Positions 1,646 through 6,192 of a stretch of 7,424 nt of DNA are shown piece by piece (position 1 is the stretch's first letter; every line of letters begins with the position of its first letter). Origin of the DNA: Pseudomonadota bacterium (GTDB lineage: Bacteria; Myxococcota; Bradymonadia; UBA4248); contig JAGBXG010000146.1 of assembly GCA_017629415.1 (NCBI GenBank), positions 1-7,424 of the forward strand, in the 5' to 3' direction. Both the position numbers and the translations under genes were made by a program. A model generated the notes under the pieces. That model was not told the DNA's origin, did not search any database, and worked only from the letters and a program-made list of their open reading frames with translations.

Positions 1646-4141
1646 TCAGGCGTTAAAGATAGAGGGTTCAAGAGCCATACCGCCACGTTCCAGTTCTTTA
1701 TAGAATTTAGGAATATTCCCTAAAGCCTTGAACTGTCCTTCCCCCATAGCCATATGTCCCATGCCGGTTCCACACCAGGCAAAAATGGGTACCAAACTGC
1801 AGCAGCCGTTGTCATCAGCAACAACCTCAGCAATTTCAACAATGCGGCGACGGGCATCCGTAAAGGCACGAACCGTCACAACAATATCAATATTACCCAC
1901 TAAACTGCGAGCCGATGCATCCGAAGCCACCATGCGTTTAAGCAGGGCAAAACCTTCATCGCCATTAAGTCCGCAAATCGTCGCCATCGAACCTTGAGCT
2001 CCGGCACAAATAGCACCCAAAAATGCACTGGCATCCGCCGGCGTCTGGATCGTATCAACAAGAACACGTTCGGCACGCAAACGGCCTACCTGGCGTACCA
2101 GAGAAGCAAGATCACCATTCTGAACACCTGCATTCTGAGCTTCAAGACTCAACACATAAGGCTGAGGCATAATCAAAACTGCAGAATTTTCAATCGTCAC
2201 AATACGCTCACCATCGGGAATTTCAGCACCAAGTGCATTCAACACACTCGTACGGCCTGAACCCTGTGCACCCACAATAAGCATGTTGCGACGAGCTTTG
2301 ACACAAAGATTCAGGAACTTCGCCATATCGCTCGAAAGTGACTCACGCTGAATCAATGCAGATACTGCATTAAACTCATGACTCGGCTTGCGAACAACAA
2401 TGTTCGTCGAGGCCACTGCCACTGGCGGCAAAATCACCTGAATCTGCGTTCCGTCTTCAAAACGAATTTCAGAAACTGTCGATGTCTGAGGATTAATCCC
2501 TTGATAAGCAAGCAAACGCTGCGAAGCAAGATAAAGTGTGTCTGCACTCGTAAACTGAATACTCGAAATTTCGCGACGACCACGACGTTCACAGACAATT
2601 GTCTCAAAATTATACACCGTGAACGTGCTCACTTCAGGATCATCAATCAAAGAATCTACTGCACCTAAACCACACACTTCCTTAAGAAGGAAATCCATAA
2701 GGCTGTTGATATCCACATTGCCAAGAGATGCACGCGTTTCACTGACACACTGAGAAAGCATATTATAACATGCATCCTGATTATCAGGTTCAGGCGGATA
2801 AGGCTGCGCAAGTATGGCCTGGAAATCATTTTTGGAAAGATAATTATCCATCACGATTCTCGCAGCTTTCATCCACGCATCGCTTTCAGCCGTACGCGCA
2901 TCATCTACAATAATATCTTCAGGAAGTGCCGCTGTACCCACATCTTTGCGTCCAGAATTGGCACGAACACCACCCAATGTTGACTTCACGGCCGGACCAC
3001 GATCCGACTGACCTGCACTGGGCAAACGAAGGGATTTATCAATCACACCCTCATTTTGTTGTGCACGTGCACCCAAAGGCGATACCGCAGGCGAAGAAGT
3101 TGCACTTAAACTGGGCGTCAACCCCGGAGCTTGGGTCAAATTACCCGGACTGCTCAGTGCAGGGCTAGGCGCTCCACTCAAAGAAGGTGCTCCACTCAAA
3201 GAAGGCCCGCCACTCAAAGAAGGCGCTCCACTCAAAGAAGGCCCGCCACTCAAAGAAGGCGCTCCACTCAAACCAGGCCCCGCGCCCAATGAAGGCGCAT
3301 TGCTCATACCAGGACCCGCACTCAAAGAAGGCGCTCCACTCAAAGAAGGCCCACCGCTTAAACCAGGCCCCGCGCCCAATGAAGGCGCATTGCCCATGCC
3401 AGGCCCCGCGCCCAATGAAGGCGCATTGCCCATGCCAGGCCCCGCGCCCAATGAAGGCGGATTACTCATGCCAGGACCCGCGCCCAATGAAGGCGCATTG
3501 CTCATGCCAGGACCCGCAGGTTCCGGCACAGACATGCCGCCCGCAGGCTCACCACCTAAAGGCGCAGAAACACCCCCCATACTCGGAACGGACATATTCG
3601 GACGGGAGAAATTCGGAGCACTGGGAACAGGCGCACCCAAAGATGGAGCATGAGGCGGAGTCATGCCGCCCATACCATGTTCACCTCCCATCGGACTGAC
3701 AGGAGGCATCGCTGCAGCAGATGGCACACCACCAAATGACGGCATGCTCGGAGCACCGCCCATACCCGGAGCACCAGGCATTGCAGGTACACCAGGCATT
3801 GAAGGCGCACCAGACATGACAGGCGCTGCCGGCATCGCTGGCGCACCGCCACCGACCTCACGAACCTCAATCGTAAAATCACCAATAAATACTTTATCCC
3901 CCTCTTGCATCACATGAGGAGTCGTAATTTTGTGACCATTAATAAACGTGCCGTTCGTACTCTTCAAATCAACGAGAATGATCTTACCATCCTTCACCAC
4001 GATACGAGAATGACGCTTAGACACATTCGTCTTCGGCAAAACAACATCATTACCCTTCACACGGCCAATCAATACTTCTGTCTTGTCGAATGTCGTTGTG
4101 GTCGACGGACCGTCCTTCTCCGTGATGGTCACACTAAGCAT
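1646..4141 (-). CDS. FHA domain fused to a degenerate CpaF/TadA-like ATPase
   Basis: The 831-residue protein has an FHA domain (about 2-95; G26-R27, S41-K-R-H44, N63-G64), a low-complexity Gly/Pro/Ser/Ala/Met linker (about 98-360) and a CpaF/TadA-type secretion ATPase domain (about 420-790). In that family the ATPase powers Flp/Tad pilus or type II/IV secretion assembly at the inner membrane. The pre-ATPase region is typical (GLGAVDSLIDDPEVS, 491-505; FEDGTQIQVILPP, 561-573). The nucleotide site is degraded: Walker A is GAQGSGRTS (624-632) with Arg for Lys; the Asp box reads TIENSAVL; Walker B reads RVLVDT where GE is expected; both His-box histidines are replaced (A715, C723). Catalysis is therefore doubtful. 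I chose the ATG at 4141, not the one at 4213, because AAGGAG lies six bases upstream and the FHA fold starts there. First gene of the operon. Confidence 0.9.
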   Translation of the reverse strand: MLSVTITEKDGPSTTTTFDKTEVLIGRVKGNDVVLPKTNVSKRHSRIVVKDGKIILVDLKSTNGTFINGHKITTPHVMQEGDKVFIGDFTIEVREVGGGAPAMPAAPVMSGAPSMPGVPAMPGAPGMGGAPSMPSFGGVPSAAAMPPVSPMGGEHGMGGMTPPHAPSLGAPVPSAPNFSRPNMSVPSMGGVSAPLGGEPAGGMSVPEPAGPGMSNAPSLGAGPGMSNPPSLGAGPGMGNAPSLGAGPGMGNAPSLGAGPGLSGGPSLSGAPSLSAGPGMSNAPSLGAGPGLSGAPSLSGGPSLSGAPSLSGGPSLSGAPSLSGAPSPALSSPGNLTQAPGLTPSLSATSSPAVSPLGARAQQNEGVIDKSLRLPSAGQSDRGPAVKSTLGGVRANSGRKDVGTAALPEDIIVDDARTAESDAWMKAARIVMDNYLSKNDFQAILAQPYPPEPDNQDACYNMLSQCVSETRASLGNVDINSLMDFLLKEVCGLGAVDSLIDDPEVSTFTVYNFETIVCERRGRREISSIQFTSADTLYLASQRLLAYQGINPQTSTVSEIRFEDGTQIQVILPPVAVASTNIVVRKPSHEFNAVSALIQRESLSSDMAKFLNLCVKARRNMLIVGAQGSGRTSVLNALGAEIPDGERIVTIENSAVLIMPQPYVLSLEAQNAGVQNGDLASLVRQVGRLRAERVLVDTIQTPADASAFLGAICAGAQGSMATICGLNGDEGFALLKRMVASDASARSLVGNIDIVVTVRAFTDARRRIVEIAEVVADDNGCCSLVPIFAWCGTGMGHMAMGEGQFKALGNIPKFYKELERGGMALEPSIFNA
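3158..3520 (-). repeat. 36-bp and 18-bp coding repeats in the FHA-ATPase linker
   Basis: This stretch encodes linker residues about 208-328. A 12-residue unit (GPGMGNAPSLGA and variants, 36 bp) recurs, then gives way to a six-residue unit (PSLSGA / PSLSGG, 18 bp). Some neighbouring 36-bp units are identical in DNA, which points to slippage or recombination. The reading frame stays open throughout. The linker is presumably a flexible tether between FHA and ATPase domains and may vary in length between strains. Confidence 0.85.
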
Positions 4142-4151: not shown

Positions 4152-4236
4152 TTAATTATTGAACAAGAGCGACGACAAACAAGCGCCACACTGCTGGAAA
4201 CGAAAATGCGCAAACACGCTCAAAAAACAAATCTAT

Positions 4237-4431: not shown

Positions 4432-5268
4432 ATGAAATATCATCAGAAATACATCAAACAATGCCTGCTCATCACCATCATACTGTTCTCATCATGGACA
4501 ATACTGGCATGCGCATCCACACAAAATATCCCAGAACCTGATGTTCCTATCGAACAAGCCAGACAAACGCTTAGCCAAATCCAAAGACAAAGTCCCGACA
4601 CGATGAGAATCAATGCCAAAATCGATTATGTCGACGGCATCAATAACAAACGTGTCGTCGGCCAAGATCTCATTCTGTCTGCACAGGCCCCTCTCAACAT
4701 GAGAATCACCCTGTCGGCCTTTGATAAAGCCATGGCCACGCTTGTCACTGATGGCACCGGATTTTCTCTCATGGATGTCTCACAAAATGCTTATGTTACC
4801 GGCATGGCAACCCCCGAAAATATCGCTTCAATTCTGCCTGTTTTCCTCTCCGCCGCCGATCTCTATCGCGTCATCAACGGACAATATCCAACAGATGGCG
4901 TATCAAAAGATTCTTCACAAAATCAACATGTTACATGGGATAACACAGAAGGAGGCTACAAACTCTCCATGCCGCTTGAAAACGGCAACATACAGCATGT
5001 CTTCTACAGCTGGCCTGAAGGCGATATTTTCCTCATCACTGTCACCAACGGGGATCAACTGCTGTACAGATACGAAGCCTCTGACTTCAAAACCTTCGAA
5101 GTCAATGAACAGCAGTGGCGCTATCCTGGACAAATTATTTTCAGGCTCCCCCCCAAAGAAACCGATGTCAGACTGCGTGTTGAAAAACGCGACATCGGCC
5201 TGGAATTTTCTCCTGCTGTTTTCAAACTCATGCCGCCTGCAGGCGCACAAATCATCGTCCTGCCATAA
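4432..5268 (+). CDS. LolA/LolB-like outer-membrane lipoprotein
   Basis: The 278-residue protein starts with a lipoprotein signal peptide: a basic N-terminus (MKYHQKYIK), a hydrophobic core and lipobox I-L-A-C with C27 as the predicted lipidated residue. Residue +2 is Ala, not Asp, so the standard Lol sorting rule predicts the outer membrane. The mature part is beta-rich and resembles the LolA/LolB/DUF4292-like fold: an early helix with QARQTLSQIQ, then the alternating strands typical of lipoprotein carriers, and a closing PPAGAQIIVLP like the ends of several deltaproteobacterial relatives. It may help insert or carry lipoproteins, but I see no residue that proves LolB activity. The ATG at 4432 is the only start between the upstream in-frame stop (4384-4386) and the signal peptide. 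It lacks a clear Shine-Dalgarno sequence. It is a single-gene unit that converges on the tRNA. Confidence 0.8.
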   Translation: MKYHQKYIKQCLLITIILFSSWTILACASTQNIPEPDVPIEQARQTLSQIQRQSPDTMRINAKIDYVDGINNKRVVGQDLILSAQAPLNMRITLSAFDKAMATLVTDGTGFSLMDVSQNAYVTGMATPENIASILPVFLSAADLYRVINGQYPTDGVSKDSSQNQHVTWDNTEGGYKLSMPLENGNIQHVFYSWPEGDIFLITVTNGDQLLYRYEASDFKTFEVNEQQWRYPGQIIFRLPPKETDVRLRVEKRDIGLEFSPAVFKLMPPAGAQIIVLP

Positions 5269-5382: not shown

Positions 5383-5411
5383 GTGCGGCGTATGCACAAG
5401 CATAGCCGCAC
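5383..5411. repeat. Bulged hairpin between the two tRNA-side terminators
   Basis: GTGCGGC, a bulged G (5390), TATGC, loop ACAA, GCATA, GCCGCAC: a perfect 7+5 bp stem with one unpaired G. No T-tract follows on either strand. It has the same plan as the hairpin at 5342-5377: a bulged G between a GGC arm and a TAT arm. Function unknown. Confidence 0.7.
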
Positions 5412-5415
5412 AAAC

Positions 5416-5445
5416 AAAAAAAACCTCTGCATCCATCTGCAGAAG
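5416..5445 (-). terminator. Intrinsic terminator of tRNA-Arg
   Basis: On the minus strand, 17 bases after the tRNA, CTTCTGCA pairs with TGCAGAGG (8 bp, one wobble, six-base loop) and is followed by eight T. It is placed to end the tRNA transcript. Confidence 0.8.
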
Positions 5446-5462
5446 CTTACGAACATTTATCA

Positions 5463-5538
5463 TGACCCTGGCAGGAGTCGAACCTGCGACTTACAGAGAT
5501 TAGGAATCTCCAGCTCTATCCGTCTGAGCTACAGGGCC
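5463..5538 (-). tRNA. tRNA-Arg (anticodon CCT)
   Basis: The cloverleaf is clear on the minus strand. The acceptor stem is GGCCCTG / CAGGGTC with one G-U pair, and the discriminator is A. The D arm is GCTC-AGACGGATA-GAGC. The anticodon arm is GGAGA-TTCCTAA-TCTCT, which gives anticodon CCT for the AGG codon. The T arm is GCAGG-TTCGACT-CCTGC. The CCA end is not encoded and must be added by nucleotidyltransferase. The variable region (GTAAGTC) has seven bases, two more than the usual class I maximum. The gene has its own promoter upstream and a terminator 17 bases downstream. Confidence 0.95.
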
Positions 5539-5552
5539 GCTAAAATCGCGCC

Positions 5553-5582
5553 CTATATGTTACAAATCCCATGGCTTGTCAA
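5553..5582 (-). promoter_or_regulatory. Promoter of tRNA-Arg
   Basis: On the minus strand a perfect TTGACA (5582-5577) is followed after 17-18 bases by CATATA/ATATAG (5559-5553) and a GC-rich discriminator (GGGCGCG), the arrangement typical of stringently controlled stable-RNA promoters. Transcription would begin about eight bases before the tRNA. The promoter lies between the stop of the LITAF-like gene and the tRNA. Confidence 0.6.
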
Positions 5583-5589
5583 TATCGAT

Positions 5590-6192
5590 TCATGCACGAC
5601 GGCCACAGCGCGGACATGTATATACGATCTGTTTTTCACGAAAAATAAGCAAAGGAATGAAACACAGCGGAAAACAGAAAAAAAGAAGCACGCCAAAAAT
5701 GACCCAGCCTAGGGATGAAACTTTATTTTCTTCCTTCATGACAAGCGTGGCATGACAAGCAAGGCATTGAGGCACCAGAGAGGTACTTCTTTTGTCATTT
5801 CGACGCGACTTTTCCATGTATGATTTCATGGCATTTTCACGCCTGTCTGCCTCTGTTTTAGGCTGCTGACGCTTGGCCAGCATATCGAGCACATCACCAG
5901 ACCTGCTTTTGAGCTCTTTATGAAGTTGGCGTGTTCTGCCTGAAAGTGCTTCAAGCTTCTGCTCAATGGCCAACATGCCTTCCGCATGAGAAGCGCCCTG
6001 TTTGGCCATATAAGCATCAATATCCTGAATAATATCTTCAGAAGTTTTGAACTCAGCCTCGGCCACACGGCTCACATATTCATCAAATTCAGAGGTCGAA
6101 TGCAAAACCACGAGTGCAGGCAAAATCGAGTCAAAATCCACGGGCACAAGCAGCCAGTTTTCGATCTGACGAATCGCTTCGGACTGTGTCAT
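5590..6192 (-). CDS. Coiled-coil protein with C-terminal LITAF-like membrane zinc ribbon
   Basis: The 200-residue protein has a charged, helical N-terminal part (about 1-135, likely coiled coil around 65-130) and a distinctive end. Cys143-x-x-Cys146 and Cys193-x-x-Cys196 flank a hydrophobic segment (about 162-184, ending in PLCFIPLLIF). This is the plan of the LITAF domain: two CxxC knuckles form one zinc site, and the hydrophobic stretch between them lies in the membrane face. The Thr after the first knuckle, the Gly-Trp before the hydrophobic core, the Cys-x-x-Pro inside it and the Y-T-C-P-x-C-G at the end all fit. The protein is probably anchored at the cytoplasmic face of the inner membrane. 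The ATG at 6192 has AAGAGG four bases upstream. It lies 66 bases after the kinase gene and may share its transcript. Its cellular role is unknown. Confidence 0.75.
   Translation of the reverse strand: MTQSEAIRQIENWLLVPVDFDSILPALVVLHSTSEFDEYVSRVAEAEFKTSEDIIQDIDAYMAKQGASHAEGMLAIEQKLEALSGRTRQLHKELKSRSGDVLDMLAKRQQPKTEADRRENAMKSYMEKSRRNDKRSTSLVPQCLACHATLVMKEENKVSSLGWVIFGVLLFFCFPLCFIPLLIFREKQIVYTCPRCGRRA

Follow-up and report, generated by a model that had tools for sequence, protein, structure and literature searches.

The window analyzed here, i.e., a stretch of 7,424 nt from contig JAGBXG010000146.1, carries on its (−) strand a gene whose product joins an FHA domain and a linker to a CpaF-like region, and a second gene, encoding two FHA domains (1634 to 249), that begins eleven bases past the stop codon of the first (Table 1). 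The FHA-CpaF-like reading frame contains no internal stop from the ATG at 4141 to 1646–1648, with AAGGAG located 5′ of the ATG. An alternative TTG start at 4213 in the ORF listing would yield a protein of 855 aa; residue numbers (R630, etc.) follow the 831-aa form, as they did in a preliminary description of this DNA. That description had proposed an FHA fusion and an open frame, and both are borne out (Pfam FHA, 3e-17 at residues 1–96; 831 aa without interruption), while the interval that it gave, 1646–2890, takes in the ATPase-like part (residues 418–831) and misses the FHA domain at 3854–4141.

Table 1. Features of the FHA-CpaF-like gene and of the double-FHA gene in the window
Feature	Position	Strand	Details
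CDS, FHA-linker-CpaF-like protein, 831 aa	1646–4141	(−)	start ATG 4141, stop 1646–1648
N-terminal FHA domain, residues 1–96	3854–4141	(−)	Pfam FHA 3e-17
Pro/Gly/Ser-rich linker, residues 97–403	2933–3853	(−)	contains 18/36-base tandem repeats
Predicted CpaF/TadA-fold region, residues 404–831, catalytically degenerate	1649–2932	(−)	AF2 + Foldseek/VIA-align
Degenerate Walker A GAQGSGRTS, residues 624–632	2246–2272	(−)	Lys replaced by Arg630
Degenerate Asp box TIENSAVL, residues 649–656	2174–2197	(−)	N652, V655
Degenerate Walker B ERVLVDTIQT, residues 691–700	2042–2071	(−)	Gly-Glu replaced by D696-T697
Degenerate His box AGAQGSMATICG, residues 713–724	1970–2005	(−)	A715, C723
Downstream gene, 461 aa, two FHA domains, one hydrophobic segment, weak TPR-like match	249–1634	(−)	
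Predicted membrane segment of the double-FHA protein, residues 235–253	876–932	(−)	mean hydropathy 3.2 over 19 residues

Pfam detects T2SSE (4e-13) in addition to FHA (3e-17) in the window protein, the NCBIfam TadA model TIGR03819 scores it at 129.5 bits (model cut-off, 373), and its best sequence match among solved structures is CpaF (8rkd; E 3e-34). The AF2 model of the CpaF-like region (residues 404–831) has a pLDDT of 90.2 and a pTM of 0.83, and both Foldseek and VIA-align return CpaF as its closest match, with the fold extending over the whole C-terminal region; a CpaF fold is predicted with high confidence. An N-terminal FHA joined to a CpaF domain, as present here, is the KilF-type architecture. 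The phosphothreonine-binding motif of FHA domains consists of the GR, SxxH, and NG residues, and the window domain retains G26, R27, S41, H44, N63, and G64, i.e., judged by its sequence, every residue expected to bind phosphothreonine.

Catalytic residues of the protein and its orthologues

In Caulobacter CpaF, K287 is the gamma-phosphate Lys, E312 the Mg-coordinating Asp-box Glu, and E357 the Walker B Glu, according to the accessible part of the corresponding report (PMC12019362). These residues correspond to R630, V655, and T697 in the window protein, and A715 and C723 stand where CpaF has its two His-box His. R560 (CpaF R217) and R687 (CpaF R347) are kept, and R223 is replaced by Q566. The substitutions listed in the preliminary description (R630, N652, V655, D696-T697, A715, and C723), as well as the retained R687/R689 and ERIVTIE, are all exact in the translation, and the alignment with CpaF/TadA and the structure prediction that it had suggested returned the CpaF fold but not the catalytic residues.

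A protein search yielded 39 orthologues at 48–97% identity, with the next matches at ~27–34% (best 120 of 150 matches), and the losses proved to be shared by the window protein and these orthologues. Specifically, none of the 40 sequences has the Walker B Glu, the Asp-box Glu, or either His, and 39/40 lack the Walker A Lys, position 630 being Arg in 39 and Lys in one (orthologue P0030). Position 655 is never Glu, positions 715 and 723 are never His, and position 696 is Asp in all 40, while position 697 is Ser in 28, Thr in 7, Ala in 4, and Met in 1, and position 652 carries Asn in 34 sequences, with Asp surviving in 2. R560, T631, E651, R689, and D696 are invariant in 40/40, as are G624 and G629 in alignment A1 (21 sequences). 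Omega was well under 1, ranging from 0.018 to 0.052 for the FHA part and from 0.075 to 0.176 for the CpaF-like part (for each part, from the 7 of 10 pairs that gave a dS value), and these values are rough because dS was near or above 1.

The view that the protein is a pseudo-ATPase with its fold kept, and not a product of decay, is supported by the sequence, the AF2 model, omega, and the orthologue counts. Orthologues with an intact Walker A Lys and Walker B Glu had been named beforehand as the sign of a local mutant; we found this pair only in sister lineages (16 of the 44 class members with the domain, Bradymonadales-like relatives, with this and the class and phylum labels taken from the source names of matches, e.g., Bradymonadaceae and Persicimonas). 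In the window's own clade, 0/40 keep the Walker B Glu; the losses are therefore not those of a local mutant, and we rejected local mutation or decay on the basis of the 39 orthologues, an omega far below 1, and losses common to the clade. A fold kept while the catalytic residues are lost across an orthologue group is the mark of a pseudoenzyme, and this is the pattern found here.

Site erosion across the wider family

At 1e-18, a search with FHA alignment A2 had matches in 160 of 282 genomes, a figure that also takes in FHA domains belonging to other proteins. The 59 further loci form a hand-picked, nonrandom sample, nearly all with frames of >540 aa; FHA was found in 59/59 and a CpaF-like part in 58/59. 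In the joint alignment, the 114 family members were set against 22 canonical sequences of the CpaF or FHA-CpaF type. L214, which combines an FHA domain with an intact site and lies downstream of a secretin gene, was counted as canonical and removed from the family count, and L162, with FHA and no detectable ATPase-like part, lies outside the counts. All 13 scored residues are kept in 22/22 canonical sequences. Among the family members (n = 114, kinship not removed; the motif letters of the most divergent ones depend on a shaky alignment), the Walker A Lys is kept in 23, the Walker B Glu in 26, the Asp-box Glu in 18, R347 in 48, and R217 in 71; the second His persists in 32 members and the first in none. 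Lys and the Walker B Glu occur together in 16, and Lys with both Glu in 0. In comparison, FHA residues G26, R27, S41, K42, H44, N63, G64, and T65 are invariant in 96/96 members with an FHA segment, and mean pairwise identity is 56% for FHA versus 27% for the CpaF-like part (96 sequences) and 54% for the canonical ATPase region (22 sequences). Going by these alignments, ATPase residues have disappeared in different ways from many relatives within the phylum, with the FHA domain hardly changed.

Two groups retain much of the site. The Bradymonadales-like proteins (P0121–P0219, n = 99) keep Lys in 93 and the Walker B Glu in 89, with the Asp-box Glu in 0 and R347 in 1. The copies of the cultured relative Lujinxingia retain Lys and Glu. 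Among 117 proteins from the FHA search (from the best 120 of 2719), 66 combine Lys, the Asp-box Glu, and the Walker B Glu, whereas none has the first His and a single one the second; those with names are largely Kofleriaceae, joined by a Haliangium and one called Acidobacteriota. Therefore, it would be wrong to call the entire family dead: as far as the residues indicate, the window's clade and several others are, and the wider family is not uniformly so. The Gly before the Walker B Glu has become Asp in 40/40 sequences of the window's order and in 98/99 Bradymonadales-like proteins, with the Asp-box Glu gone. Asp at that position is the classical P-loop arrangement, and its arrival along with the loss of the Asp-box Glu could represent a swap of the Mg-binding residue.

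Several lineages outside the window's clade have lost the pocket completely. The fold is predicted to persist even in L104, which has no recognizable motif (model pLDDT, 78; pTM, 0.54; best match CpaF, E 1.6e-19). Two unusual architectures were also observed: L162 (3575–5053) carries the family FHA on a 492-aa protein without a detectable CpaF-like part, possibly a full domain loss, and P0039 (1384 aa; source name CpaF) contains three CpaF-like stretches, the best of which has an intact site.

In a 141-taxon tree, the family forms one clade (SH-aLRT 100) beside the intact FHA-CpaF proteins P0042, P0052, and L214, and stands apart from the KilF-type clade of the class (M. xanthus KilF not included). 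The window's order and the Bradymonadales-like branch (100 each) are sisters, joined at a node of 93.7. Loss of the first His is a single step on this tree, and the other losses are scattered. Fitch counts for K287 amount to 3 steps on a 78-taxon tree and to 9 on the 141-taxon tree (27 losses there when regain is disallowed), and because they differ with the tree, we claim no firm number of losses.

The gene pair, its neighborhood, and Tad genes

The double-FHA protein is a probable partner of the FHA-CpaF-like protein. Across the class (57 genomes), the analysis covered 48 loci that encode the long-FHA protein in full or at its start, two of them (L003 and L040) in one genome. An FHA gene lies directly downstream in 42/48; four of the six misses (L003, L093, L109, and L110) end at a contig edge, and two (L095 and L108) do not. 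The same holds for 7/7 window-order loci that extend past the gene with its CpaF-like part. A hydrophobic segment follows just behind the second FHA in all 12 class double-FHA proteins checked (window included), and the short double-FHA forms (235–250 aa) carry one as well. Outside the class, an FHA gene is directly downstream (within 600 bases) in only 24/59 loci, so the pairing is not universal. A second double-FHA gene was noted near a dNK-type gene in sister genomes (L001, 163–1776; L003, 2824–4383; L004, 629–2200).

Many Bradymonadales-like loci have an OppABCDF-type ABC operon upstream and convergent MlaC, OEP, and SppA genes downstream (neighbor clusters at 17 to 29 of 48 loci; Pfam on one example each). 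The neighbors differ at the window, L001, L002, and L004, and L037 and L039 of the same order have Opp-type genes nearby. Since the neighbors, including the Opp-type context, vary within the window's order, no pathway follows, and we rejected them as a functional clue. The window further contains a LITAF-like zinc ribbon protein (5590–6192, (−) strand; Pfam 5e-10), homologues of which adjoin the dNK-type gene in L001, L002, L003, and L004; a divergent lipoprotein-like ORF (4432–5268, (+) strand; weak DUF2092 match), homologues of which are located upstream of that same gene in L001, L002, and L004; a tRNA-Arg (cct) at 5463–5538 on the (−) strand, overlapped by a probably spurious (+)-strand ORF (5383–5712); and, on the 3′ side of the double-FHA gene, a tandem repeat (1–269; period 121, 2.2 copies, 95% matches).

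We sampled nine genomes of the window's order, of unknown completeness and with the window's own not among them; 7/9 carry the CpaF-like part. CpaB was found in 0/9 versus 5/5 controls (G010, G018, G020, G022, and G023), as were TadB/TadC-type T2SSF matches (weak, 43–60 bits; 0/9 versus 5/5), and besides the pseudo-protein, nothing in the order genomes exceeded 62.5 bits against the TadA model. In comparison, the class has two intact FHA-CpaF proteins that reach 311 bits. Because these two also fall short of the cut-off (311 versus 373 bits), it is not decisive as a test for Tad, and we instead relied on bit scores, CpaB, and T2SSF; the absence is meaningful chiefly through the agreement of all nine genomes. 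Thus, neither a partner Tad ring, which the preliminary description had suggested could be encoded elsewhere, nor the catalytic TadA paralogue that it had proposed to look for was encountered in these nine relatives. No Tad, type IV pilus (T4P), or type II secretion (T2SS) genes were found in the window or among the annotated conserved neighbors. In G001 and G004, the two order genomes with classified secretion ATPases, PilB, GspE, a TfpB-like protein, and PilT are present, and a tie of the window protein to the type IVa pilus or T2SS, to which such ATPases belong, is conceivable. Class loci keeping Lys and Glu lie in a genome with CpaB over the cut-off in 14/16 cases, versus 8/28 for loci without them (Fisher p 0.0004, uncorrected for kinship), a hint of an ancient association with Tad.

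A scaffold reading, its alternatives, and known systems

We consider it fairly probable that the window protein is a CpaF/TadA-derived pseudo-ATPase kept as a scaffold. The CpaF-like part would form an oligomer, probably a ring, without ATP hydrolysis, which would display several FHA domains on flexible linkers; once a Ser/Thr kinase has phosphorylated a common target, the oligomer would be gathered with the double-FHA protein at the inner membrane. Because R630 (39/40), T631, and D696 (both 40/40) are conserved, the window's clade may bind nucleotide or phosphate without turnover, and such sensing appears likelier than an empty pocket.

It seems unlikely that the protein instead serves, as a regulatory subunit or as a decoy, a catalytic Tad/Kil, type IVa pilus, or T2SS ring encoded elsewhere in the genome. 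Its fold and sequence derive from CpaF, the link between Lys+Glu loci and CpaB genomes recalls an old Tad tie, and PilB, GspE, the TfpB-like ATPase, and PilT would offer possible rings in the two classified genomes, but that link is uncorrected for kinship, CpaB or TadB/C-type matches occur in 0/9 order genomes, and Tad, T4P, and T2SS genes are absent from the window and the annotated conserved neighbors. Still less probable is an active or slow ATPase that works with Arg in Walker A and Asp at the usual Walker B Gly. A Lys-to-Arg P-loop could keep residual activity, which counts against the scaffold reading, and the five residues invariant in 40/40, the G624 and G629 of A1, and the Lys of P0030 fit this alternative; the Walker B Glu, the Asp-box Glu, and both His are nevertheless absent in 40/40, and K287A abolishes the activity of CpaF, although this change is Lys to Ala, not Lys to Arg (PMC12019362, accessible part). 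A decaying pseudogene or assembly artefact, suggested by the joint loss of several motifs, has next to no credibility, being refuted by the open frame, the 39 orthologues, an omega far below 1, and the conserved gene pair.

Extending the scaffold reading to the phylum, we tentatively propose, as a minority expectation, that Myxococcota possess an ancient Tad-independent signaling platform, in which a CpaF-type oligomer carrying FHA, accompanied in many lineages by a membrane protein with two FHA domains, would have lost hydrolysis repeatedly and in parallel, turning from a motor into a phospho-signal hub. The series from a near-complete to an erased site next to an almost frozen FHA would be a rare natural experiment in the passage from motor to scaffold. 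Counts of Tad pili by name in this phylum may be inflated because many such proteins carry the source names "pilus assembly protein CpaF" or "TadA." The conserved FHA gene pair occurs in bacteria of interest for Ser/Thr phospho-signaling and FHA-rich predation systems.

The downstream protein recalls FHA-TM proteins whose cytoplasmic part is YscD/SctD- or GltG-like, in that it has Pfam FHA and Yop-YscD_cpl matches and matches the GltG and SctD models below cut-off; unlike them, it has two tandem FHA domains. No type III secretion or gliding genes were recognized among the annotated genes near the double-FHA gene. No description of a catalytically degenerate FHA-CpaF family was found in the open literature (titles and abstract openings, with subscription papers mostly outside). 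An FHA-fused CpaF is itself already known as KilF, the CpaF-type ATPase of the Tad-like Kil predation system of Myxococcus xanthus (Seef et al. 2021), which, in the accessible part of that paper (PMC8460266), is associated with further FHA proteins and has Kil-like counterparts in Bradymonadales. The window protein resembles KilF, as described there, in its N-terminal FHA, its CpaF-type ATPase region, and its company of further FHA proteins, and differs from Kil in that CpaB and Tad-type platform genes were not found in its order (9 genomes). Compared with the CpaF/TadA of Caulobacter (PDB 8rjf, 8rkd, and 9e24), the residues at K287, E312, E357, and both His-box His are all replaced. Within the class, the FHA-CpaF proteins encoded by CpaB and platform genes (such as L111, L112, L117, and L118, presumably KilF-type) retain every scored residue, in contrast to the window protein.
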